From the NCBI GenBank assembly GCA_945833885.1, contig CAMAFY010000034.1, forward strand, positions 1 through 32,848: DNA of 32,848 nucleotides, read 5' to 3'. Positions 1,936 to 25,838 of this stretch are shown here, one piece after another. The notes under the pieces are model-generated. The model was not told the origin of the DNA. It was given only the letters and a program-made list of their open reading frames with translations, and made no database searches. The stretch is from an uncultured Bacteroidales bacterium. GTDB taxonomy: Bacteria; Bacteroidota; Bacteroidia; Bacteroidales; Bacteroidaceae. Each line of letters starts with the position of its first letter. The stretch's first letter is position 1. The position numbers were made by a program, and so were the translations under genes.

Positions 1936-2875
1936 GACGTAGTTTTCGTAGGTTCAACATCAATCTTGAAATCCAAGACAGATGGTGAGTCAAGCACCAC
2001 ATATTGAATTTCAATTTCAAATTGATATAGGGACAGTCCCAAATATAATGTTTCTTCTCCGGAACCATCGTCAGGAAATCCTTCCACGTTTCGCGTTCCA
2101 ACACCAATTCCTGTGTGGATTTCAGCATCCGCCAGCACATGGTCTTGCGGTAGTCCTCGTAGACACCCTGCTCCTTGAAGAAGCGGATGATGTCCTGATA
2201 TACCCACTGTTCGTCACACTCCGTCTTTTTGTTCAGATTGTGCATCACACTCCCTCCCTGCTGGCGGTAGTGGTAGAACGGACGGTGTACATTCGCCACC
2301 TTACGAGCAAAATAACACAGACGGACTATCAGATGGAAATCCTCACAGTAAGTAACACCCTGCGGGCTTTGTAACTGATGCTCTTCGTAGAGGGAACGCT
2401 TATGGATTCCCCCCCACACACACGTCCATACAGAGGTGATGTAGCGGTTCAACGACGTGATCTTGCAGTCATCCCAGTCCGGAAACCGGTAGGGCACGTC
2501 CCGGTCTGGATAAGCAAACAGAGAGTCGCCCATTACGATGTCGGCCCCAGTCTCTTCGCCCTTCTGGAGTAACAACTCCAACATTTCCGGCTCTATCCAG
2601 TCATCCCCGTCCAAATACATCACCCACTCTCCAGAAGCCATTGCCAATCCACCATTCCGCGCAGAAGTTAATCCGCCATTGGGTTTATGAATGACCCGGA
2701 TGCGCCCGTCTTTCGTAGCATATTCATCACAGATGGAACCACAGGTATCCTTGCTACCATCGTCAACCAGAATCAATTCCCATTCGGTAAACGTTTGGGC
2801 AAGGATGCTATCAATGCAGCATGGAAGGAATTTTTCAATATTATATATAGGAACAATAATAGAAATCACACACAT
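1922..2875 (-). CDS. GT2-family glycosyltransferase
   Basis: A GT2 enzyme of 317 residues if it starts at the ATG at 2875. This start gives MCVISIIVPIYN and overlaps the stop of the upstream gene by 10 bases. An in-frame ATG at 2905 would add 10 residues but overlap the upstream gene by 40 bases, so I prefer 2875. Visible motifs are the first strand ISIIVPIYN, LILVDDGSKD at about 35-44 and the metal site YLDGDDW at about 87-93, where most relatives have DSDD. The C-terminal half (HYRQQGGSV, residues near 200) resembles EpsJ/WcaA-type transferases. It probably adds one sugar of the repeat unit; the specific sugar is unknown. Confidence 0.88.
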   Translation of the reverse strand: MCVISIIVPIYNIEKFLPCCIDSILAQTFTEWELILVDDGSKDTCGSICDEYATKDGRIRVIHKPNGGLTSARNGGLAMASGEWVMYLDGDDWIEPEMLELLLQKGEETGADIVMGDSLFAYPDRDVPYRFPDWDDCKITSLNRYITSVWTCVWGGIHKRSLYEEHQLQSPQGVTYCEDFHLIVRLCYFARKVANVHRPFYHYRQQGGSVMHNLNKKTECDEQWVYQDIIRFFKEQGVYEDYRKTMCWRMLKSTQELVLERETWKDFLTMVPEKKHYIWDCPYINLKLKFNMWCLTHHLSWISRLMLNLRKLRHGRI

Positions 2876-3870
2876 ATCTTGCCTTTCATATACGTAACCA
2901 ACCATCTACACATATCATACAAATCATACAAACGCATATCAAGCATTTTTACAAGCATCTTCGTTTTCAAAGAGTTTGGATAAATATTGTGTACGTAACA
3001 ATCTATATCCAGATTCCGAAGGACTATTCTCCTGCTTTTGCACGGTATCTCTTGTATATACAAAGCATTCAACACCCGATTGATATAGGAAGCTTTTAAC
3101 CAATTCAATTCTTTTCGTGCCTTTGGCGATAACTTTTTGTTACATACCATTTGGTCTACTAACGAATGAATTTTTTGCATTCCCGACAACTCACTTTGTA
3201 GGGAATTCACTCTCTTCGTCAAAGAACCCGCAATCTCGCTTCTGTAGCAATAGTCAGTATAACATACAATCTTTATTTCATTCGCCTGCAACATATAGGA
3301 ATAAAGGAATATGGCATCCTCCCCTATATGTACATCTTCTTCAAACCGAAGTCGGTAAGTCTCAATGATTTTTCTTTTGTAAAGTTTGCTCCATGGCGAT
3401 GTATGCCAACTCATCGCATTTTGCTCAAACAAAAGAGAGAAGTTTTCGGCAGTGATATCATGCTCCGGATATTCTTCTTTAACACCTTTATTGTCGTTGT
3501 CACTGAACACAGTAGCATAGGTAATCACCAAATCCGACGTATGGGCACATATCATTAAATGCTCTAAATACAAAGGCTTAATCCAGTCATCACTATCCAC
3601 AAAGGTCACCCATTCTCCCCGCGCATTATCCAGTCCCAGATTTCGTGCTGAACTCACTCCCCCATTCTCCTTATGGAATACTCTCACGCGGGCATCCTTG
3701 GCTGCATACTCATCACAGATGGCGCCTGAGGAATCCTTGCTGCCATCATCTATGAGCAGTAATTCCCAATTGGTAAAGGTCTGGACCAACACACTGTCTA
3801 TGCAGCGATAGAGGTACTTCTCTGCATTATAGACCGGAATGATTACTGATATTTTAGGGATATTGGCCAT
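2866..3870 (-). CDS. GT2-family glycosyltransferase (paralogue of the next gene)
   Basis: A 334-residue GT2 enzyme. The GT-A motifs are SVIIPVYN at 8-15, LLLIDDGSKD at 37-46, GGVSSARNLGLDNARGEW at 70-87 and the metal-binding DSDDW at 92-96. The first 100 residues are almost the same as those of the neighbouring 3870-4823 product, and the DNA is nearly identical over 3585-3670, while the C-terminal acceptor halves differ. This suggests a local duplication or gene conversion of the donor-binding half. Its ATG shares one base with the upstream stop (TAATG), a sign of translational coupling. The coding sequence is AT-richer than the flippase and Fe-S genes, as is common in polysaccharide clusters. 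Confidence 0.9.
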   Translation of the reverse strand: MANIPKISVIIPVYNAEKYLYRCIDSVLVQTFTNWELLLIDDGSKDSSGAICDEYAAKDARVRVFHKENGGVSSARNLGLDNARGEWVTFVDSDDWIKPLYLEHLMICAHTSDLVITYATVFSDNDNKGVKEEYPEHDITAENFSLLFEQNAMSWHTSPWSKLYKRKIIETYRLRFEEDVHIGEDAIFLYSYMLQANEIKIVCYTDYCYRSEIAGSLTKRVNSLQSELSGMQKIHSLVDQMVCNKKLSPKARKELNWLKASYINRVLNALYIQEIPCKSRRIVLRNLDIDCYVHNIYPNSLKTKMLVKMLDMRLYDLYDMCRWLVTYMKGKICV

Positions 3871-4823
3871 TAATATTTATGTTTATTTGCCTGATGCATT
3901 TTCAGACGATAAAGGAGATGGAAGGATAACCAAGTCCTTACCCATGCTAAAATGCCCAAATGAGCAGAACGGCGAAGACAGAGCCTTTCTACATCCTTAT
4001 TCTTGTACCACAGGTATCCATGCTTCGGTAAATCATTCATACAACGTTCATAAAAGGCCTGAACATTGAAGACTTCAAACCCTTTATCTCTAACACCAAT
4101 ACTTTGATATGTTTTCTCTAAAGATAAAAGATGATGAACAGAAGATTCTACAGATATCTGGTATTTTGCATCTGTTGATTGAGACGGAGCTATATATACA
4201 TATAAACAATTTTCAATTGCAGAATTTGCTAATACTCTTAAGCTCCTTGATCTTGATATAAAGGAAAACACATATTTTGTATCTTCACTGATACACATGC
4301 TTTCATCAAAATGCAAGCCCAATACTAACTGTCTTCGAAACATCTTCCCCCAAGGAGCTAAAAAGCACAAGTTCGTCAAACAATTTGTTACTCCAGACTT
4401 TATATCATTATAATAGCCAGGTGAAATTTGTGAGCCAACCTCTTCTGCTTCTTGTTTCCTTATCATCTGAATATTCCCCACCACTAAATCCGCATCCAGA
4501 TTACCATCAAAGGACTTGAGATAGTTTTCTTCTATATAGTCATCACTATCCACAAAGGTTATCCATTCTCCCCGCGCATTATCCAGTCCCAGATTTCGTG
4601 CTGAACTTACTCCCCCATTTTCCTTATGGAAGACCCTTACGCGAGTATCCTGGGCTGCATACTCATCGCAGATGGTGCCAGAAGAATCCTTGCTACCATC
4701 GTCTATGAGGAGCAGTTCAAAGTTCGTATAGGTCTGGGCGAGGATGCTGTCTATGCAACGGTGCAGGAATTTCTCCGTATTATAGACCGGGACGATAATG
4801 GATACAACAGGTGTGGGTGTCAT
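3870..4823 (-). CDS. GT2-family glycosyltransferase (paralogue of the preceding entry)
   Basis: A 317-residue GT2 enzyme starting MTPTPVVSIIVPVYN. The donor-binding half carries LLLIDDGSKD at 37-46, the long shared block at 70-87 and DSDDY at 92-96. The acceptor half is AT-rich and unlike its paralogue. It is the first GT gene after a 239-bp gap from the pyruvyl transferase gene, the only real gap in the operon. That gap holds a dispersed repeat element (see 4876-5001), so the gene may be read through from the flippase promoter or have its own start; I see no clear -7 box in the gap. Family assignment is firm; specificity is unknown. Confidence 0.9.
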   Translation of the reverse strand: MTPTPVVSIIVPVYNTEKFLHRCIDSILAQTYTNFELLLIDDGSKDSSGTICDEYAAQDTRVRVFHKENGGVSSARNLGLDNARGEWITFVDSDDYIEENYLKSFDGNLDADLVVGNIQMIRKQEAEEVGSQISPGYYNDIKSGVTNCLTNLCFLAPWGKMFRRQLVLGLHFDESMCISEDTKYVFSFISRSRSLRVLANSAIENCLYVYIAPSQSTDAKYQISVESSVHHLLSLEKTYQSIGVRDKGFEVFNVQAFYERCMNDLPKHGYLWYKNKDVERLCLRRSAHLGILAWVRTWLSFHLLYRLKMHQANKHKY

Positions 4824-5062: not shown

Positions 5063-6184
5063 TTAACATCCCAATGCCTCGGCAAGGAACTGGCGCGAGG
5101 AGATGCGCATCTGCTCCAACCTTTCATTGACATCTTTCCAGTTAATATTGGTATCGGGAAGCGAAAAGTCCTCTGCAGATATCAGACGGTCCGAAAGGCC
5201 GAGAGGTTCCAAAAGGGAATGGAAACGTCCCATCCCACGCCAGCGATTTCCCAAACAGACAAATGGTTTCTGGAAAATGATGGAAAACACACACCCGTGG
5301 AAGGAGTCCGTCACCACGAATTCGGCCTGGTCGAACTCTGCCAACCATTGGGAGATTGTCAGCATCTTTCCTCCATGGGACTCGGCACTGAAAGTCTTTA
5401 CAGGAAGATGGAGTTGGGAACCCAGTCTTGACAGACACTGCTGTATCTGCTCAGAAGTGTCAAGAATATAGGCAGCAATATGCGGATTGAAGCCCCTATC
5501 CTCATCTTTAATCTTTGTCCTGTATTTTTCGGCAGGAAGGAGGAGTGTGGGGTCCAAGACCTTCACCCCCTTGGAATAGCCGAAATCGCGCTCCAGAATT
5601 TCGAGTCCTTCATATTCGCGAACGGATACCGCATCGAAACGATGGAGCAAATCACGGCACACAGGTAGCATAGCCTCAGAAATAAATTCGCGCGACTTAC
5701 CAAATGATGCGGCATAGGCTATACGAGGCCGAGGGTCGTTCATGGCAAGGAAATCGAGGAAATACCTCGAAATTGAAGGGGAATAGTCTTCACGCCACAC
5801 CTGGTCACTCCCTACTACAAATGCATCATATCCACGGTTTTCTACAAAAAGGCCCAAATCCACATCAGCAAAAAAACGTTTTGTCTTATGAATTTCCCCG
5901 ACGAACGCAGAATCTACATACTGCGGAGCAACGGGGGTGTATTGTGGGGTCAAAGGCGAATGGATGTAGACGCCGCCACGTCGGAGCAGGTATTTTTTTA
6001 TCAGACATTTGACCACACTTAGGCAACGCCTCGCCAGAAACCTTCTTCCAGGACGCTTTTCATAACAAAGAAAAATCATCTCCGGTTGATGCCCCATGGC
6101 AAGGAGCACCTGCTGCAAGGCCCAATTCTGAAGTATACCGCCATAATTATGGCGAATAGGCAATGTGAGAATACCTATCTTCAT
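5063..6184 (-). CDS. Polysaccharide pyruvyl transferase family protein
   Basis: A 373-residue protein of the WcaK/CsaB/EpsI family, which adds pyruvate as a ketal from phosphoenolpyruvate to a sugar of a surface polysaccharide, giving it negative charge. Visible signatures are the start KIGILTLPIRHNYGGILQN (NYGG at 13-16), FVVGSDQVW at about 122-130 and TDSFHGCVF near residue 290. The length is typical. Its start overlaps the end of the Fe-S protein gene by 4 bases (ATGA). In many Bacteroidetes clusters these two families sit side by side, and a joint role in modifying the polysaccharide is likely but not proven here. Some family members use other ketal donors or acceptors, so the exact reaction is inference. 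Confidence 0.92.
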   Translation of the reverse strand: MKIGILTLPIRHNYGGILQNWALQQVLLAMGHQPEMIFLCYEKRPGRRFLARRCLSVVKCLIKKYLLRRGGVYIHSPLTPQYTPVAPQYVDSAFVGEIHKTKRFFADVDLGLFVENRGYDAFVVGSDQVWREDYSPSISRYFLDFLAMNDPRPRIAYAASFGKSREFISEAMLPVCRDLLHRFDAVSVREYEGLEILERDFGYSKGVKVLDPTLLLPAEKYRTKIKDEDRGFNPHIAAYILDTSEQIQQCLSRLGSQLHLPVKTFSAESHGGKMLTISQWLAEFDQAEFVVTDSFHGCVFSIIFQKPFVCLGNRWRGMGRFHSLLEPLGLSDRLISAEDFSLPDTNINWKDVNERLEQMRISSRQFLAEALGC

Positions 6185-7416
6185 AATAATCTATAAAGCT
6201 TCCGCCAGAGACGGAAAGGAAGAGAAGGGTGGGTTGTTGCGCCAAGAGCCCGGAAGAAACCGGAACGTCTGAGCATCATAAAGAAGAACTTACGGTTAAT
6301 GGGGCGACTGACGGAGGCGGAGATGCTGGTGTTGTGGGCATGTACCCGCTCGAAAGGTTGGGAATGGAATGCAATGGGGAGGGAGGAAAGTAACTTTTGT
6401 CCGCGTTCGCTGTTCACAAATACCAGACTGGTGCCACCGTCATCGTCGAGGTGGGGAGCCTCACGCTCCACACCCCAATAGTCGCCGAGGGTCAGGTCGC
6501 TGCCGCTGCGGAAACACTTGGCCGGACAGGCATAACACGACGGGCGGAGAATCAGGTCGCGGAGAAATGCCTGCATAAAGGCATTTTCCGTAAAGCCATT
6601 AAGAGCGCAAAACTGAATTTTCTCTCCTGCAGCCGAGGCTTTGGAGAGGGAGAGCGCAAAACGGTATTTTTTCCAACCGTTCGTCTTGTCCCGAAAGCGG
6701 ATGTCGTCGATGCGGCATCCCAAACGTGCCGCGAGGGCATCGGCTTTCGGGATAGAGGGAATAGTGGAGAACGCAAAACGGTATTTTTTCTCGCCCTTAC
6801 GGGCGATTTTCGTCATTTCCTCTGCCAGATAGGCCCGGAAGACTCCGGGGGAGGGGACACCATGGCAGACGAAGTCGACACAGAGCAGGTGGTCGTAGTC
6901 GCGCCGCAGGAAACGCCGCAGCCCGGCAATCTGACAGGGGGTGCCGGAAAAGAGGACCTGGCGCCCGGACTTCAGGAAACGTTCCGCCTGCAGGAAGGTA
7001 TCGCCGATGACACTCTGCACATATTTGCTGCCGCGGAATGCCGCCAGCTCCTCGCGCGTCTCGGCATAGCGGTGACAGACTTCCCAATGTGCATCGAACG
7101 CGGCTCCGAACACCACACCCCCAGCATCGATTACCACCTCGGCAAGGGCGGTAAACACACCGCCCGAACTGCTGGCAAGACGCACCCCGGCATCGGGATT
7201 GATGGCAGCGAAGGTCTGCAGAGGCTGGCGTTCGGCATCGGGATGCAGCTCGGGACAGACCTGTTCGCACAGACCACAATTGACGCAGTGCGATGTGTCG
7301 ACCTCGGGATAGAGAAAGCCTTCGGCATCCTCGCGGAGGGATATGCACTGCTTAGGGCAACGCTGCACACAGGCACTGCAACCGCAACATCGGGAGGAAT
7401 CGGAAATTCGAATCAT
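6181..7416 (-). CDS. Coenzyme F420 hydrogenase/dehydrogenase beta-subunit-like Fe-S protein
   Basis: A 411-residue protein with two N-terminal [4Fe-4S] ferredoxin motifs: Cys10, Cys13, Cys16, Cys20-Pro and Cys44, Cys47, Cys50, Cys54-Pro. The FrhB-type domains follow (for example SSSGGVFTALAE near residue 80 and GTPCQIAGLRRFL near 160). Bacteria of this group do not use F420 as a rule. Homologues in polysaccharide clusters are usually found next to pyruvyl transferases, so a redox step on a sugar or a supporting role is likely, with no proven reaction. It overlaps both neighbours by 4 bases (ATGA), so the flippase, this gene and the pyruvyl transferase form a tightly coupled unit. GC content is higher than in the GT2 genes. 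Confidence 0.9.
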   Translation of the reverse strand: MIRISDSSRCCGCSACVQRCPKQCISLREDAEGFLYPEVDTSHCVNCGLCEQVCPELHPDAERQPLQTFAAINPDAGVRLASSSGGVFTALAEVVIDAGGVVFGAAFDAHWEVCHRYAETREELAAFRGSKYVQSVIGDTFLQAERFLKSGRQVLFSGTPCQIAGLRRFLRRDYDHLLCVDFVCHGVPSPGVFRAYLAEEMTKIARKGEKKYRFAFSTIPSIPKADALAARLGCRIDDIRFRDKTNGWKKYRFALSLSKASAAGEKIQFCALNGFTENAFMQAFLRDLILRPSCYACPAKCFRSGSDLTLGDYWGVEREAPHLDDDGGTSLVFVNSERGQKLLSSLPIAFHSQPFERVHAHNTSISASVSRPINRKFFFMMLRRSGFFRALGATTHPSLPFRLWRKLYRLL

Positions 7417-8990
7417 AGGAAACGGTGTATGGTTTCTTTCGCCTTGGCAACCAGAAAACGACGCTCACCCTGCGTGCATCCCAAACGCCAGACACTGAAA
7501 ATACTACATACCACACAGACTACAGAAAGCATCAGGAAACGCTGCCACCCCTCAAGAGGAAGGGTTCGAAGCAAAGCGAAAGGCAGAATGGCGGCGGCGG
7601 CGGAAACTATCCACACATTGAGATAAACGTTGCGCAGGAAACGCCGCATGGACAATCCTGCCATCCGGCGTAGGAACCACAGACGCAACATCATGCAGGC
7701 AAAGGACACACCCAAACCCACATAATACACATATTCCGGCGCATAGCCCAACTTCAGGCAAATCCACGAAAGCGGGAAGTTCATCAACAACATTCCGCCC
7801 ACGACAATCTGATAGTTGCGAATCTTCCCAGTGGCATTCTGCAAGGTGATGAGGGTGTTGGAAAGGATGTCGGACATGGTAAGCAACAACACCAGCCGCA
7901 CAAAACTTACACTGTGGGCAGGATAATGCTTCAGCCAAAGCGTGAGCACGAAATCCGTTTCGAACAGGATGGGAAGGGCCAGAATGAGCAGAATATAGAA
8001 CGAAAACCGCGAACCGCGTTCCACGATGGAAAACATATAGTCGCGGTCATCGGCGGCATAGGATTTGGTAATCTGCGGATTAAGGGCTGCCATGAAGTTT
8101 CCGGCAAAGCCTCCCACGGCATTGTTGACCGAAAGGGCGACACCACGGGCGGCATTGATGACAGGACCTCCGGCATAAAGGTTGAGGAGGAGATTGACGC
8201 CCTGGTCCTTGAGCAACCCTGCCGTACAGCCTATAAAATTCCAGGTAGCGAAACCGCTCATTTCCTTCCAATACGAACGGTCGAAAAGAAAACGAAGGCG
8301 ACACTCCTCGAAATGACGGCGGCAATAGGAAAGGTATATGCCCTGCATGGTGACACTCAACGAAAGAAGGAGAAGAGCGTAGACTATCAACTTGTCGAAC
8401 TGCCATGGGGCATAGGCCACAAACAGGATGATGAGCAGACGGGCAAGGACATCGAAAATGCCGAAATAGGCAAAGGCCGACATCCGCTCATGGGAGATGA
8501 TGGAGGCATTGAAGGGTACGCTGAAAAGACCCAGCATGAACGAGAGGATGGAGGTCTGGAACACCCAGTTGGCTGCCACAAGACGGCTGGGGGGAAGCAC
8601 AAGCTGGGTATTGAGGAACCACAGACCAAGGGTCTCCGTAGCCACAAAGATAATGGCGGCAAGAGAGACATGGATGACCAACGAGGTGGAGAACACCAAC
8701 TTCAGCCGTTCCTTGTCACCACGTCCGAGCTCAAAAGTCAGGAAACGCCCCGTTGCAGAACTAAGCGAACTTGAAATCAGCGAAAACATTCCCACAAAAC
8801 CTCCCACCACGTTCTGGATACCGTAGTCCTCGACTCCGAGCGTATTGAGGATGACGCGGGAGGTGTAGAGCGAAACGAGCATGCTAATAAGCATGCGGAC
8901 GTAGAGGACGAGGGTATTCTTGGCGATGCGTTTGGTGTTTTCGCTGTGGGTGGCGTCCATAAAAGAATGAGGCGGGAGGATATACGTCAT
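7413..8990 (-). CDS. wzx: Polysaccharide flippase (Wzx/MATE-like, MOP superfamily)
   Basis: A 525-residue integral membrane protein with about 12-14 hydrophobic segments. It starts with the typical helix order KNTLVLYVRMLISMLVSLYTSRVILNTLGVEDYG. This class moves undecaprenyl-linked repeat units across the inner membrane. The string VEDYGIQNVVGGFVGMFSLIS is characteristic of the Bacteroidetes type. Two starts are possible: ATG at 8990 (used here) and ATG at 8960 (MDATHSENTKRIAKNT); the second loses nothing conserved. It is the first gene of the leftward operon and lies 255 nt downstream of a -7 box set between inverted repeats. No Wzy polymerase is visible in the window; it may lie beyond the left edge. 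Confidence 0.9.
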   Translation of the reverse strand: MTYILPPHSFMDATHSENTKRIAKNTLVLYVRMLISMLVSLYTSRVILNTLGVEDYGIQNVVGGFVGMFSLISSSLSSATGRFLTFELGRGDKERLKLVFSTSLVIHVSLAAIIFVATETLGLWFLNTQLVLPPSRLVAANWVFQTSILSFMLGLFSVPFNASIISHERMSAFAYFGIFDVLARLLIILFVAYAPWQFDKLIVYALLLLSLSVTMQGIYLSYCRRHFEECRLRFLFDRSYWKEMSGFATWNFIGCTAGLLKDQGVNLLLNLYAGGPVINAARGVALSVNNAVGGFAGNFMAALNPQITKSYAADDRDYMFSIVERGSRFSFYILLILALPILFETDFVLTLWLKHYPAHSVSFVRLVLLLTMSDILSNTLITLQNATGKIRNYQIVVGGMLLMNFPLSWICLKLGYAPEYVYYVGLGVSFACMMLRLWFLRRMAGLSMRRFLRNVYLNVWIVSAAAAILPFALLRTLPLEGWQRFLMLSVVCVVCSIFSVWRLGCTQGERRFLVAKAKETIHRFL

Positions 8991-9094
8991 TTTCCCGTCG
9001 GTTATACTAATTTATTGTATAACAGACGGTTACAATAAAAACAAGGCGAACTTGGGAAAAAGTTCCGCAATTTATGATAAGGGCTGTCAATCAG

Positions 9095-9135
9095 ATTGGA
9101 GTATCGGCTGAAGGACGCCGAACTAATTCTCCAAT
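9095..9135 (-). promoter_or_regulatory. Nested hairpin in the leader of the polysaccharide operon
   Basis: On the transcript the outer arms ATTGGAG and CTCCAAT (7 bp) enclose the inner arms TCGGC and GCCGA (5 bp) with an 8-nt loop and an asymmetric internal loop (7 and 2 nt). No U-run follows, so this is not a simple terminator. It lies about 105 nt before the flippase start, in a leader of about 255 nt. Bacteroides capsule operons have long leaders controlled by NusG-like UpxY proteins, so a role in processive antitermination or translation is possible (inference). Confidence 0.55.
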
Positions 9136-9221
9136 TCCTGAGTTTATACGACTCTTTGAAGCGGTTATCGAAACAGCAAAAACATTGCTGAATGCGGACA
9201 AAAAATCGTGTTTATCTGCCC

Positions 9222-9245
9222 TTTCTCTTAATAAGAGAAATTCAT
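9222..9245. repeat. Inverted repeat, left arm, flanking the polysaccharide promoter
   Basis: This 24-nt arm (a 19-nt palindrome with arms TTTCTCTTA and TAAGAGAAA around one base, then TTCAT) is repeated perfectly in inverted orientation at 9393-9416. Between the arms are 147 nt holding the -7 box of the operon. The layout matches that of invertible capsule promoters in Bacteroides. Because each arm is itself palindromic, a pair of regulator-binding sites is the main alternative. Confidence 0.75.
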
Positions 9246-9253
9246 TAACGATG

Positions 9254-9261
9254 CAAAAGTA
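9254..9261 (-). promoter_or_regulatory. Promoter (-7 box) of the polysaccharide operon
   Basis: On the minus strand this reads TACTTTTG, an exact match to the Bacteroidetes -7 consensus TAnnTTTG, followed by CATCG. A weak -33 element (GTTG) lies 17 nt upstream at 9279-9282, shorter than the usual spacing of about 19-21. Transcription would start near 9247 and run left into the flippase gene. In this orientation the promoter faces the operon, so the state seen here would be ON if the segment inverts. Confidence 0.65.
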
Positions 9262-9392
9262 CGAAACTTTTTGCAAAACAACGCGGTTTTCCAAAGATTT
9301 TTTTGCATTTGTGGGGAAACTGTCAATAGATGCCACACGAATATTTCAATTCACCGATGCCGACATGCCTAATAATCAGCGTTTTACACGGC

Positions 9393-9421
9393 ATGAATTT
9401 CTCTTATTAAGAGAAATTCAT
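9393..9421. repeat. Inverted repeat, right arm, flanking the polysaccharide promoter
   Basis: A perfect 29-nt palindrome (arms of 14 nt, ATGAATTTCTCTTA and its complement, around one T). Positions 9393-9416 are the exact inverted copy of 9222-9245. The extra symmetry on the outer side (to 9421) is absent from the left arm. The stretch from 9422 to 9568 holds only AT-rich sequence with no convincing gene. Confidence 0.75.
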
Positions 9422-9568
9422 TTCAATATTTTCGTCTTTTTCTCTCCCATTCATCCCTCACAAAACCTTCTCAATATCAACGTATTAAAGAAATTTTGTT
9501 AATCAAATGTATATTGATTTTCGCGCACAAAATATAATATGGGGCGGAAATTATCATTATAGGAAGGT

Positions 9569-9645
9569 GCCAGATGAGCAGAACGGAAGCGTGTGCAACG
9601 CGCTTACGATATGCCATGGCGAGAAAACGAAGGATGGAATCCAAC
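9569..9645. repeat. Left inverted copy of the cassette-flanking repeat
   Basis: The 77-nt stretch is the reverse complement of 11116-11192 with 8 differences (69 of 77 identical). Together the copies bracket the three-gene DUF3791/DUF3990 cassette. In the plus direction it contains an open stretch reading MSRTEACATRLRYAMARKRR, and the right-hand copies keep a very similar reading, so it may come from a decayed coding segment or carry a small peptide. Confidence 0.8.
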
Positions 9646-9646
9646 A

Positions 9647-9687
9647 AAAAACTGCGGCACTTTCACATGGAAAGCACCGCAGTTTTT
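9647..9687. terminator. Bidirectional terminator-like hairpin
   Basis: Arms AAAAACTGCGG (9647-9657) and CCGCAGTTTTT (9677-9687) pair perfectly over 11 bp around a 19-nt loop, giving A/T tracts on both sides. It sits just after the left repeat copy, between the leftward cassette and the polysaccharide promoter, so it would insulate the two units. Confidence 0.7.
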
Positions 9688-9754
9688 ACATTTTACAAGT
9701 ATTGAGGAGGGCGGATCAAACACGAACCGCGTGGATATAGTCCAGGAGGAACTA

Positions 9755-10006
9755 ACACGAATAAAACGAATTTTACGTATGTTTGCGCTCAATGGCGCAT
9801 CCGGGGGCGCTGCCCCCTTATCATTCTTTTGCCCTTGCCTTTCCCTTCAGCCGGCGACCTATGGTTCAGGGCGTGGACTGTGGGGTGTCGTTTACACTCA
9901 GGGTGCCGCTTCGCTCTGCCCTGGGCTATGGTCTTTTGCGTCTTCAGCGCGAAAACATCACGCCACACCCATGAACCCACATTCGTATAATTCGTGCAAT
10001 TCGTGG
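9755..10006. repeat. Repeat cluster: ATTCGT motifs and a two-hairpin direct repeat
   Basis: This stretch downstream of the cassette has no convincing gene. It begins with CACGAATAAAACGAATTTTACG (copy start 9755), continues with the two-hairpin repeat at 9781-9836 (TGCGC/GCGCA, then GGGGGC/GCCCCC with a 3-nt loop) and ends with ATTCGTATAATTCGTGCAATTCGTGG-type repeats (9981-10006). The two-hairpin unit recurs at 11468-11524 in the same orientation. Related ATTCGT strings are at 11441-11467, 11559-11578 and 14604-14667. Long open frames here are by-products of the repeats. Confidence 0.7.
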
Positions 10007-10063
10007 TTTCTCCCCCCCATAACATCCCACATGGCATTCACCAATTCACCACCCAGGGTGCCG

Positions 10064-10270
10064 TTATTGGGATTCTCTCAATTCCGCTATCAGTTCTTCC
10101 AAAATATAATCGTCGCTCATCAGTTGCAAGCCATACTTGGGTTCCGACAACTGCTGATAGACTTTCGTAGAATAAAACAGGTCGAGCGAGCGCTCCGCAT
10201 CTATATGTAAGGCTTCTGCCAGCAACATGATGATTCGACTCTGTTTTCGCCACAATACGGTATCTCTCAT
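10064..10270 (-). CDS. Small DUF3791-like protein (last gene of the cassette)
   Basis: A 68-residue protein (MRDTVLWRKQSRIIMLLAE...) predicted to be all helical. It resembles the short DUF3791-type proteins that accompany DUF3990 genes: the strings LLAEALHIDAERSLDLFYSTKVY and LMSDDYILEELIAEL fit that pattern. The ATG lies two bases beyond the DUF3990 stop, so it is co-translated or closely coupled. It is probably a partner or antitoxin of the DUF3990 protein, by analogy with small genes beside ADP-ribosyltransferase-type toxins; this is inference. Family membership is from memory of such cassettes and is less certain than for the first gene. Confidence 0.7.
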   Translation of the reverse strand: MRDTVLWRKQSRIIMLLAEALHIDAERSLDLFYSTKVYQQLSEPKYGLQLMSDDYILEELIAELRESQ

Positions 10271-10272
10271 GA

Positions 10273-10779
10273 TTATTCCTCCACCTTTAATATTTCAGAC
10301 AAAGTATACGTGAGGTATTTGTCCACAATCTCTTGATTCAGGATGCAAATCTGATGATTCACTTTCTTATAGCGTAGTTGTCCCAATGCCTGTTCTGCTG
10401 TGATAATGCCGTTTTCATAGTCTTCCACGGTATCGATGACATTATCATTTGCCACACCACCTTCAACAATGTCATATTGGCATTGTTTATTGCCACCTCT
10501 GCGGCAATCCACAACGTATCCCAACCATTCGATATTGTAACTCTCAAACACCTTTATCCTATATCCGGCAGACTTTACAGATTCAAAGTCAAAAGTAAAA
10601 GTTGAAACTACAGGTTGGGCATTGCGACCTTTTCTTTCTGCTATCGTATATGCCCACGACTCTGCCTGCTGGCGAAGTCTGGTAAGGTAAAACCCTTGTC
10701 CGAAATCCACCTTCTTTCTGCCTAACTTTACAAGAGGGGTTTGAACGGGTACGTACGACCCATGAAAAAGAGTAATCAT
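10273..10779 (-). CDS. DUF3990 protein, probable ADP-ribosyltransferase-fold effector
   Basis: A 168-residue protein starting MITLFHGSYVPV. This ATG (10779) overlaps the stop of the upstream gene as ATGA, and it suits the family better than the in-frame ATG at 10794. Conserved features are LFHGS at 4-8 (His6), DFGQGFYLT at 25-33 (Tyr31), a YDIVEGGVAND block at 102-112 and NHQICILN at 141-148. His and Tyr in these places recall the H-Y-x signature of ADP-ribosyltransferase folds, to whose clan DUF3990 is assigned. A NAD-dependent modification of protein or nucleic acid, held in check by the small flanking proteins, is the likely role, but target and activity are unknown. Confidence 0.85.
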   Translation of the reverse strand: MITLFHGSYVPVQTPLVKLGRKKVDFGQGFYLTRLRQQAESWAYTIAERKGRNAQPVVSTFTFDFESVKSAGYRIKVFESYNIEWLGYVVDCRRGGNKQCQYDIVEGGVANDNVIDTVEDYENGIITAEQALGQLRYKKVNHQICILNQEIVDKYLTYTLSEILKVEE

Positions 10780-11009
10780 GCCTCTGCCTCCCAATTTAAC
10801 AATGTTTCGCTAATGTCGTCTGCTACCCATTCAATACTCTGGGTGTGAAGTTCTTCATAACGCTTGATAAGTCGGCGGTGAATCAATCCTTGCTTTAGTA
10901 GCCTGTCGTGCATCTCTTTACCCGAAATGCCTAACTTGCGTGCTCCGCTTTCTATCGCCATGACAGCGAAATGAATGCGTTTATATGTATCGTCATCGGT
11001 ATATTGCAT
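10776..11009 (-). CDS. DUF3791 protein (first gene of the cassette)
   Basis: A 77-residue protein if it starts at the ATG at 11009 (MQYTDDDTYKRIHF). A GTG at 11069 would extend it to 97 residues, but the added part lies in sequence related to the flanking repeats, so I prefer the shorter form. The core AVMAIESGARKLGISGKEMHDRLLKQGLIHRRLIKRY...ELHTQSIEWVADDI has the DUF3791 pattern: a helix, GxSGKEV-like turn, and HTQG-like segment followed by an acidic DDI. It overlaps the DUF3990 gene by 4 bases. It is probably the regulatory or neutralising partner of the DUF3990 protein (inference). Confidence 0.82.
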   Translation of the reverse strand: MQYTDDDTYKRIHFAVMAIESGARKLGISGKEMHDRLLKQGLIHRRLIKRYEELHTQSIEWVADDISETLLNWEAEA

Positions 11010-11115
11010 ATCGTGTTCCGTAATTGCTGTTTGACTTGTGTTTGTTGGACTTCGTTCTTCGTTTTTCACGCTCGGCAGAACAAACCAATTTGCTCTGCTC
11101 TCACTTAATCAAAAC

Positions 11116-11294
11116 GTTGGATTTCTTCCTTCGTTTTCTCGCCATGGAATAACGTAAGCGTGTTGCACTTGCTTCCGCTCTGCTCATCTGGCTTAACGAA
11201 AACGTTGAACTTTGTTCTTCGTTTTCTCGCCATGGCATAACGTAAGCGTGTTGCACTTGCTTCCGCTCTGCTCAACTGGCTTAACGAAAACGTT
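11116..11294. repeat. Tandem repeat, period 88 bp, in the cassette leader
   Basis: Two copies of a 78-nt unit (11129-11206 and 11217-11294) differ at only 2 positions and are spaced 88 bp apart. A diverged partial copy starts at 11057 and reaches the cassette. The unit is the inverted partner of 9569-9645. All copies lie upstream of the leftward DUF3791 gene and would be transcribed as part of its leader. Confidence 0.85.
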
Positions 11295-13141: not shown

Positions 13142-14398
13142 TCAGGGCATCAAAAGCCATTCCCATATCGGGAGCACCTGGATAGTGTGACCCGAGGATA
13201 CTATGGTTTCTTTTTCGTCCTTCGTGATGATAAACATCTGTTTTACGTCACAGTGTTCCGACATCTTACACAAAGCGTTTATCTCACGTTTGCGCGTCTC
13301 ATCATCGGCAAGAGAATAGGCAACCTGAATGGCTGTCTCTTGCTCCCAGAGATAGAAGTCTACCTCCACATTATGGTTGTAGAAACACACGTCCTCGTAC
13401 TTGCTGTGCAGGGAGATGGCAACCAGATTTTCAAGCAGAGAGGTTTCGGGGTCAAACAAGAAGAGATTGAGAATACCATTATCCATAAAGTAATACTTCT
13501 TGTTGGTCACCTTGTCCACAATCTTTCCCGCATAATTCTCAAAACTGAATATCAGACAACTCTCTTCTATATATTCCAAATAGTCGGCAACGGTCTCGAC
13601 ACGGATCTTCTTCCCTACCGACGACACTATATTTGCCAACCTGTTATAGGAAGAGGGTTGCTTCACGCTCTCTGCAAGTTTTTTTACAAGGGTTTTCAGC
13701 GCAATGATATTACGGATATTAAAGCGTGCCAGGATGTCTCCGAAAAATATCTTGTTGTACAGATTGTTCAACCATTGACGCCTCATCACGGGCTCTACAG
13801 GCTGCACCTCGGGAAGACCACCACTCCTGAAATAGACTTCAAACAGACGCGCCACCTCAGAACGCACGGGAGAATACCGCCAGTTGGCCGGGAGTTGAAC
13901 TTTGGAAGCCATAAGGTATTCTCTGAAAGAATAGGGGAAGACACGCTGAATCATGTACCTGCCACCTAAGGTACCGGCAATCTCCATGCTGAGCATCTTG
14001 GCATTGCTTCCGGTAAGATAGACGCGATACTTCTGGTCGGCTAATCTGCGAGCGAAATGCTCCCAACCTTGAACATTTTGAATCTCGTCCAAAAAGAATA
14101 CAGGCTTGTGGGCATACAATTCTTCATAACAAACCTTGAGGAGGTCAAGATCCTGCAATGTAAAACCGCTCAAACGGTCATCTTCAAAATTAAAATACAG
14201 GATTTCTTCCGATGAATATCCCTTATCGATAAGATGCTGTATATGCTGATAGAGCAGATACGATTTACCAACACGACGCAATCCTACCAAGACGTAGTTA
14301 AAATCGTCCGAAAGGATGATGTCGCGGGGGATAAGTTCCATTCGGGTTACCAGTTGTTGATATTCCAGAATCAACCGCTTCAATAGGTCTTTTTCCAT
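13142..14398 (-). CDS. AAA ATPase with DUF4143 domain (second copy)
   Basis: A 418-residue ATPase starting MEKDLLKRLILEYQQ. This ATG (14398) is the common start of the family; an in-frame ATG at 14434 adds 12 atypical residues. Walker A is GLRRVGKS at 39-46 and Walker B is VFFLDEIQ at 100-107. The DUF4143 part ends with VEVDFYLWEQETAIQVAYSL, where the nuclease-like motif is again not canonical. It shares only the fold with the preceding ATPase, so the pair is not a recent duplication. Its promoter overlaps three 33-bp-spaced operator-like repeats, so the gene is probably repressed, perhaps by its own product or a regulator elsewhere. Cellular role unknown. Confidence 0.9.
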   Translation of the reverse strand: MEKDLLKRLILEYQQLVTRMELIPRDIILSDDFNYVLVGLRRVGKSYLLYQHIQHLIDKGYSSEEILYFNFEDDRLSGFTLQDLDLLKVCYEELYAHKPVFFLDEIQNVQGWEHFARRLADQKYRVYLTGSNAKMLSMEIAGTLGGRYMIQRVFPYSFREYLMASKVQLPANWRYSPVRSEVARLFEVYFRSGGLPEVQPVEPVMRRQWLNNLYNKIFFGDILARFNIRNIIALKTLVKKLAESVKQPSSYNRLANIVSSVGKKIRVETVADYLEYIEESCLIFSFENYAGKIVDKVTNKKYYFMDNGILNLFLFDPETSLLENLVAISLHSKYEDVCFYNHNVEVDFYLWEQETAIQVAYSLADDETRKREINALCKMSEHCDVKQMFIITKDEKETIVSSGHTIQVLPIWEWLLMP

Positions 14399-14471
14399 AT
14401 TTTTCAGATTATGGTGGAATATATAAATTACCACCTTACCATGTACCGTTGCCTGACAATTTGCGTTTTAC

Positions 14472-14552
14472 CGCTTATAACCGATACAAAATTATGGTTT
14501 TTATCGCTTATAACCGATAAAAACTGGCGAATTCTTTCGCTTATAACCGATA
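14472..14552. promoter_or_regulatory. Three phased operator-like repeats (33-bp spacing)
   Basis: CGCTTATAACCGATA occurs at 14472-14486, 14505-14519 and 14538-14552, with exactly 33 bp between starts (about three helical turns). Each forms an imperfect dyad with TTATCG and CGATAA arms around a central TTATAA (most complete in copy 2). Copy 1 abuts the -7 box at 14487-14494, copy 2 covers the -33 zone and copy 3 lies upstream. This is the layout expected for cooperative repressor binding. Confidence 0.8.
14487..14494 (-). promoter_or_regulatory. Promoter (-7 box) of the second DUF4143 ATPase gene
   Basis: On the minus strand this reads TAATTTTG, a match to TAnnTTTG, directly next to operator copy 1 and 19 nt from operator copy 2. 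No TTTG is found at -33; that position lies inside copy 2. The leader is about 85 nt to the ATG at 14398. Confidence 0.6.
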
Positions 14553-14603
14553 AAAATCATTTTTTCGTCAGAAAATGGCTTTTCGGAGGGCAATTTTTAC
14601 CAC

Positions 14604-25740: not shown

Positions 25741-25773
25741 ATGGTCAACTCCGGAAAACGGAAAATTTTGGGC

Positions 25774-25838
25774 AAAAAAAATGGGATACCGCTGTACCCC
25801 AATCTTGTTAACCTTAAATCTAATACTATGAAAAACAC
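25774..25838 (-). ncRNA. Candidate small RNA, about 65 nt
   Basis: A complete transcription unit without a reading frame: consensus promoter just upstream (25843-25874), start expected near 25838, and a Rho-independent terminator at its end. The terminator is GGGGTAC, tetraloop AGCG, GTATCCC, then A and eight T (25781-25774). The fourth pair is G-U only on the minus strand, and would be an A/C mismatch on the plus strand, which fixes the direction. The body contains ATAGTATTAGATTTAAGG and TTAACAAGATTGG. I recall similar strings in other Bacteroidales intergenic regions, unverified. Function unknown; it lies between the YfhO terminator and the next rightward gene. Confidence 0.7.

Follow-up and report, generated by a model that had tools for sequence, protein, structure and literature searches.

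A predicted invertible promoter of a polysaccharide operon in an uncultured Bacteroidales bacterium, with a tyrosine recombinase as its probable invertase

The stretch of DNA that we analysed, here called the window (32,848 nucleotides), contains a short intergenic segment at 9239-9399 that is, on the sequence evidence, highly probably an invertible operon promoter flipped by a tyrosine recombinase, the likeliest enzyme being one encoded on a separate contig (C33) and acting in trans. Invertible promoters in front of polysaccharide operons are a known kind of switch, as described in text passages of PMC8375218, PMC12118408, PMC12691588, PMC8748976, PMC11892184 and PMC12632263, and the window is a new example. 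The original prediction was that this segment switches. Membership in a family of similar segments supports this strongly; inversion of the window locus itself was not seen, the locus being known in one orientation only, from a single assembly. Inversion here is nevertheless predicted to be very likely, because the window fits the family in its inverted sites, matched central triplets and outward-facing promoter box, and because both orientations occur in that family. That the window copy flips, that the C33 enzyme flips it and that the OFF state means no expression are points that we infer.

The features of the locus are collected in Table 1. Inverted repeats enclose a short intergenic segment, and the repeat finder returned the arms as predicted, 24 nt long, 100% complementary and 147 nt apart. 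Each arm had also been described as a palindrome, which holds: the left core (9222-9240) reads as a palindrome of 19 nt about a single central base, and the right palindrome is 29 nt long (9393-9421), extending past the end of the arm at 9416. The core TCTCTTnnnAAGAGA is present in both arms, and the central triplet of the pair is AAT/ATT. With up to three mismatches the 19-nt core occurs twice in the window, where 0.01 occurrences are expected, and the whole 3.1-Mb assembly has only these two arm copies. Single sites are found elsewhere in the genome, two of them exact (C16:4716 and C41:22963) and four with one mismatch, and none has, within 1.5 kb, a partner with two or fewer differences. 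The best candidate partners of these single sites have four differences and were rejected as sites.

Table 1. Positions of the candidate switch, of the operon in front of which it lies and of the proposed recombinase gene (window coordinates unless a contig is given)
Feature	Position	Strand	Description
Left arm	9222-9245		operon-proximal; core site TCTCTTAATAAGAGA at 9224-9238 (sequence reading, repeat finder)
Right arm	9393-9416		exact inverted copy of left arm; core site TCTCTTATTAAGAGA at 9400-9414 (repeat finder)
Candidate invertible segment	9239-9399		between core sites; 161 nt, commonest length class in the searched range
-7 box TACTTTTG	9254-9261	minus	15 nt from left core site, directed outward to the operon
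Predicted 5' leader	8991-9247	minus	from inferred transcription start to first gene; begins with arm hairpin
Polysaccharide flippase (PF01943)	7413-8990	minus	first operon gene; Pfam
FrhB/FdhB-type iron-sulphur protein	6181-7416	minus	Pfam
Polysaccharide pyruvyltransferase (PF04230)	5063-6184	minus	Pfam
Glycosyltransferase family 2	3870-4823	minus	
Glycosyltransferase family 2	2866-3870	minus	
Glycosyltransferase family 2	1922-2905	minus	
Probable glycosyltransferase	973-1935	minus	weak PF00535 match, under the curated cut-off
Glycosyltransferase family 8	25-972	minus	
C33 tyrosine recombinase	C33:862-2079	minus	apparently intact; SAM_5 and Phage_integrase domains

The -7 box was found between the arms on the minus strand, as originally claimed; the only other TAnnTTTG in 8950-9650 lies at 9511, also on the minus strand and outside the segment. 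The predicted promoter reads out of the segment to the operon, its box spaced as in the relatives described below, and the orientation in the assembly is the predicted ON orientation, with the putative promoter directed at the polysaccharide genes. These genes had been part of the original prediction too, and they form an operon of eight minus-strand genes headed by the flippase, five of them coding for known or probable glycosyltransferases, after which the contig ends. The locus is not a UpxY/UpxZ capsule locus, since its first gene codes for a flippase, in the place where capsule loci commonly have a NusG-like gene of the UpxY type. The predicted leader folds far above shuffled sequences (z = -4.6), with a long hairpin right before the start codon, and this structured leader may be an extra layer of control, possibly attenuation. 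Two ORFs overlapping the segment and leader have no Pfam match and were therefore treated as non-coding. A plus-strand ORF (9593-10210) and a short minus-strand ORF in the same place also have no Pfam match.

Core sites of this kind were sought, at up to two mismatches, in 399 genomes of the same taxonomic family. The single-site pattern matched 53 of the 399 genomes; a backwards control also matched often, so single sites carry no weight and only pairs were considered. Several of the matches were inverted pairs about 180-370 nt apart. Twenty stretches containing pairs or single sites were extracted and their pairs read. All 12 loci displayed, the window included, have two palindromic sites with inverted central letters and an inner -7 box directed outward over one arm; the outliers are locus L058, where 35 nt separate box and arm, and L057, with a span of 763 nt.

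A larger scan covered TCTCTTnnnAAGAGA pairs with a gap of 158-188 nt in named genome contigs, and 80 of the 119 stretches were analysed. By title, 73 of these 80, among the matches listed, are from Bacteroidales; three are from unnamed bacteria and four have other titles (Lachnospiraceae, L081; a Clostridium MAG, L144; Ignavibacteriales; Zixibacteria). Complete examples are present in L081 and L144, contigs that may have been mis-binned. The central triplet is inverted-identical between the arms in 79 of the 81 pairs among the matches listed, direct in none and neither in two, these two being the Ignavibacteriales and Zixibacteria records. There are 33 different triplets among the 79 listed segments. 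TAnnTTTG occurs within 30 nt of an arm and directed outward in 72 of the 81 listed pairs, compared with 4.0 in shuffles; 70 of the 79 segments have the outward -7 box 9-20 nt inside the arm, mostly at 13-16 nt. The window has the half-sites, the inverted-identical triplet, the gap class and the box at 9-20 nt that characterise this family.

Potential targets were taken as ORFs of 100 aa or more that read outward and lie no more than 900 nt from an arm; both sides were counted, apart from a side with an adjoining recombinase. The 86 outward proteins near the listed segments include 11 NusG-like proteins, seven AraC-type regulators, five DUF3575 proteins and three TonB-dependent receptors; because ORFs from either side were counted, some of the 86 are not targets. 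Several loci have unusual arrangements. At L055 (8809-9382) the site centres of two neighbouring segments differ. At L145 (4675-4898), and also in genomes G242 and G122, one arm has a doubled site with copies tens of nt apart, which are perhaps spare crossover sites. The segment at L137 (1820-3387), whose inverted arms are 51 nt long or more, lies between two outward 203-aa ORFs at equal distances and is possibly a single promoter choosing between two genes.

The lengths of the segments cluster at steps of about 11 nt. The gap is 158-164 nt in 39 of the 79 listed segments (a class whose lower edge was set by the search range), 169-175 nt in 23 and 177-188 nt in 17. In a Rayleigh-type test of the 79 gaps with periods of 10.5-12, in which kinship between loci was ignored, none of 5000 uniform draws was equally strong. 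A search of the 399 family genomes for gaps of 189-219 nt gave 24 places in 16 genomes, some of them overlapping or near-duplicate, with gaps of 192-197 nt in 19, 199-201 nt in two and 213-216 nt in three. The triplets were inverted-identical in all 24 (both strand rows compared), and a reversed-pattern control gave none. Helical length steps are expected if recombination takes place in a complex with a short DNA loop, yet would also fit looping by a regulator.

A recombinase gene of one clade lies within 900 nt of 17 of the 79 listed segments, and in all 17 its 3' end is toward the segment. The promoter is directed toward the adjoining recombinase in 11 of these loci, away from it in four and unclear in two, so both orientations occur among such pairs. 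When related loci were compared, the segment was found flipped against a common flank in L071/L124, L112/L142, L131/L142 and L125/L128; two more flipped pairs, L067/L097 and L091/L110, rest on short matches, and the other listed locus pairs with matching flanks agree in orientation. Six loci on viral contigs that have the pair were used in the recombinase listing and left out of this comparison. Thus the family inverts, but not every copy shows inversion: in L047-L052, six almost identical copies of a related element from three genera, the orientation is always the same. This element has one plasmid match, in an unannotated record, with the orientation of the query over all 1001 bases, and has no match to phage sequences.

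The original prediction noted no recombinase gene in the window, in agreement with a tblastn search of it with 11 relatives, which gave nothing significant (best E 0.12). Control by an Mpi-type enzyme had also been suggested. Mpi is a serine recombinase, and the serine recombinase family PF00239 has no match in this genome. The assembly is 87% complete, so a further enzyme may be missing from it. The repeat quoted in the text of PMC8375218 is by eye absent from the arms, and the recombinases adjoining TCTCTTnnnAAGAGA pairs are tyrosine recombinases of about 405 aa. An Mpi-type mechanism is thus left without support.

There are five tyrosine recombinases above the cut-off in the assembly, two of which match best with XerD/XerC models. 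One, on contig C33, is a homologue of the enzymes that adjoin the pairs, and would be the cognate invertase if it acts on these sites. It scores 242-326 bits against the unbroken recombinases adjoining such pairs, and it differs from 18 relatives at 11 of their 94%-conserved columns, with four of the differences in the C-terminal catalytic half and seven in the N-terminal half. The residues that we take to be catalytic appear intact. A search of the PDB with this protein gave no match.

Homologues of the C33 protein were found by protein search and, where there was sufficient downstream sequence, inspected for an inverted pair with one mismatch permitted per site. The pair lies just downstream in 15 of 34 homologues of at least 200 bits and in none of six weaker ones; the other 19 close homologues have no downstream pair, and in several of these, different inverted repeats are present. 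Within the genus, a pair with a gap of 156-186 nt is present in four of 58 genomes, this one included. All four are among the 19 genomes, again including this one, whose best homologue has E of 1e-50 or lower (chance 0.009, with the threshold chosen afterwards and the 19 genomes counted by hand). With four more members that have gaps of 189-219 nt, from a search that took in 34 of the 58 genomes, the proportion is seven of eight, genome G326 being the exception (chance 0.001).

A clear TCTCTT pair was not found beside the C33 gene. The nearest candidate is an imperfect inverted pair 590-800 nt downstream. Its arms match at 86% over 22 nt and are separated by 160 nt; the right one has a site with two mismatches, and no -7 box lies between them. 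With the gene on a separate contig and a clear TCTCTT pair missing at home, we can only infer the site preference of its enzyme. The imperfect pair lies in a repeated tract with a degenerate TCTCCTCAAAAGAgA site, seen at 60-330 of L046 (on contig C33 of this genome, G000) and at 60-260 of L190 (on contig C14); the tract could be a decayed target of the C33 enzyme. Near-repeats around GCGCGCGCATA occur at 540-700 of L046, downstream of the recombinase gene.

No recombinase of the clade lies within 900 nt in 26 of the 38 listed family members with good flanks, which makes orphan segments a common form in the family. Since the window segment likewise has no adjoining enzyme, action in trans is the simplest reading, and the C33 recombinase is, judged from its sequence, most likely the best candidate. 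A B. fragilis invertase with one local and one distant target, named in a title in a reference list, is reportedly a precedent.

We propose that the tyrosine recombinase, most likely the C33 enzyme acting in trans, would bind the symmetric half-sites TCTCTT/AAGAGA of both arms, and that the arms would recombine across the short central stretch, which is identical between them in inverted order, so that the segment flips. In the ON state the promoter would point left, across the left arm, and drive the polysaccharide operon. After inversion it would point right, to the opposite-strand DUF3990/DUF3791 genes and the plus-strand ORF without a Pfam match; the operon would be deprived of the segment promoter and would presumably be silent.

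The segment might instead be a decayed, locked promoter that has lost its own recombinase, so that its sites are unused and the operon is fixed ON. The lack of a significant recombinase match in the window and of a clear matching pair beside the C33 gene would agree with such decay, but the arms remain perfect over 24 nt, the genome encodes an enzyme of the right clade that appears intact, and orphan segments are frequent in the family. We consider a locked promoter unlikely. The arms might also be operators for a dimeric repressor or activator, a caveat raised in the original prediction: both are palindromic, with the left at the predicted transcription start and the other 176 nt upstream, an arrangement that allows looping, for which the steps of about 11 nt would also be needed. 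A dimer site, however, needs no inverted copy of the triplet, and with the triplets inverted in 79 of 81 listed pairs, direct in none and of 33 kinds, with recombinase genes adjoining 17 of the 79 segments and with orientation varying among loci, the family argues strongly against operators, which are now very unlikely here.

It is less probable still, to the point of being scarcely credible, that the arms belong to a small mobile element of the MITE type or form a chance hairpin pair. Terminal inverted repeats do enclose a short non-coding segment, as in such elements, but the assembly has no further copy of the core, no target-site duplication is visible by eye next to the arms, and a 601-nt region of the locus matched only its own genome among 61 searched (its own and 60 relatives). 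The site, gap and box spacing moreover match the family of invertible promoters.

The nearest published likeness to an inversion by a tyrosine recombinase is with the tyrosine-type invertase promoters described in the text of PMC12118408, at capsule loci of B. thetaiotaomicron, B. xylanisolvens and P. distasonis. These are also short intergenic segments in front of polysaccharide operons, with a Bacteroidales promoter and palindromic inverted repeats. In that text, however, an invertase/integrase gene adjoins, the repeats are of the GTTAC/GCTAC type where the window has TCTCTTnnnAAGAGA, and the P. distasonis promoter regions are 314-345 bp. The operon in the window, moreover, does not begin with a UpxY-like gene. 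In the text of PMC8748976, antibiotic-resistance genes of Bacteroidales ICEs have invertible promoters derived from glycan-synthesis loci, with a promoter near TTTG/TANNTTTGY similar to the box in the window. There the invertase adjoins the invertible region and resistance genes are driven, whereas the window segment is predicted to drive a polysaccharide operon; the ICE repeats are given as figure logos.

The Mpi capsule promoter segments of B. fragilis and its relatives are 174-186 bp (text of PMC8375218 and PMC12691588), and one enzyme of B. fragilis acts on distant segments (reviewed in part of PMC12632263). The window resembles these in its polysaccharide operon and in length, with 147 nt between the arms and 195 nt with them; it differs in its repeat and in the lack of a serine recombinase match in its genome. 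Published inverton groups based on repeat homology have linked invertases beyond the reach of their promoter, as in the window family. The letters TCTCTT and AAGAG are absent from the main text of that work, and an NCBIfam scan of the C33 protein did not return its invertase label. The window repeat differs from every published repeat that these sources spell out in the text compared. A literature search for the letters AAGAGA in connection with Bacteroides phase variation and inverted repeats gave a single paper, in which they belong to sequencing adapters.

The window has other features. An 88-nt repeat (9569-9645, plus; 11099-11280, minus) is inverted around the DUF3791/DUF3990 gene pair (10273-11069); it is dispersed in the genome and locally tandem, with parts on contigs C6, C16, C22, C37, C41, C46 and C69. 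Three 33-nt tandem copies with GCTTATAACCGATA at 14466-14564 are perhaps an operator array; they lie immediately upstream of a minus-strand AAA/DUF4143 gene (13142-14434). The only Rfam match in the window is a FopS small RNA (RF04319) above the gathering score at 25771-25838 on the minus strand, away from the segment.

A broader reading, which we offer tentatively and regard as doubtful in its full form, is that one invertase clade flips many dispersed promoters in trans, with the variable triplet as a locus address matched between arms and the length set by helix turns (about 160, 171, 183 and 194 nt). In this genome the module would be split, with one enzyme and its single known target, the polysaccharide operon, on separate contigs. 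The triplet as a strict address is weakened because several loci share one triplet in some single records, for example in Phocaeicola massiliensis (AGT).

What was a suggestive repeat has become a well-supported phase-variable surface switch in a Bacteroidaceae-like species. The signature, a pair of TCTCTTnnnAAGAGA sites that are inverted and matched in their triplets, with a -7 box some 14 nt in from an arm, detects such switches in assemblies without reads. The finding points to a tyrosine invertase working at a distance from its own gene, and the matched variable triplet, the helical steps and the orphan targets of the family are open to direct test.
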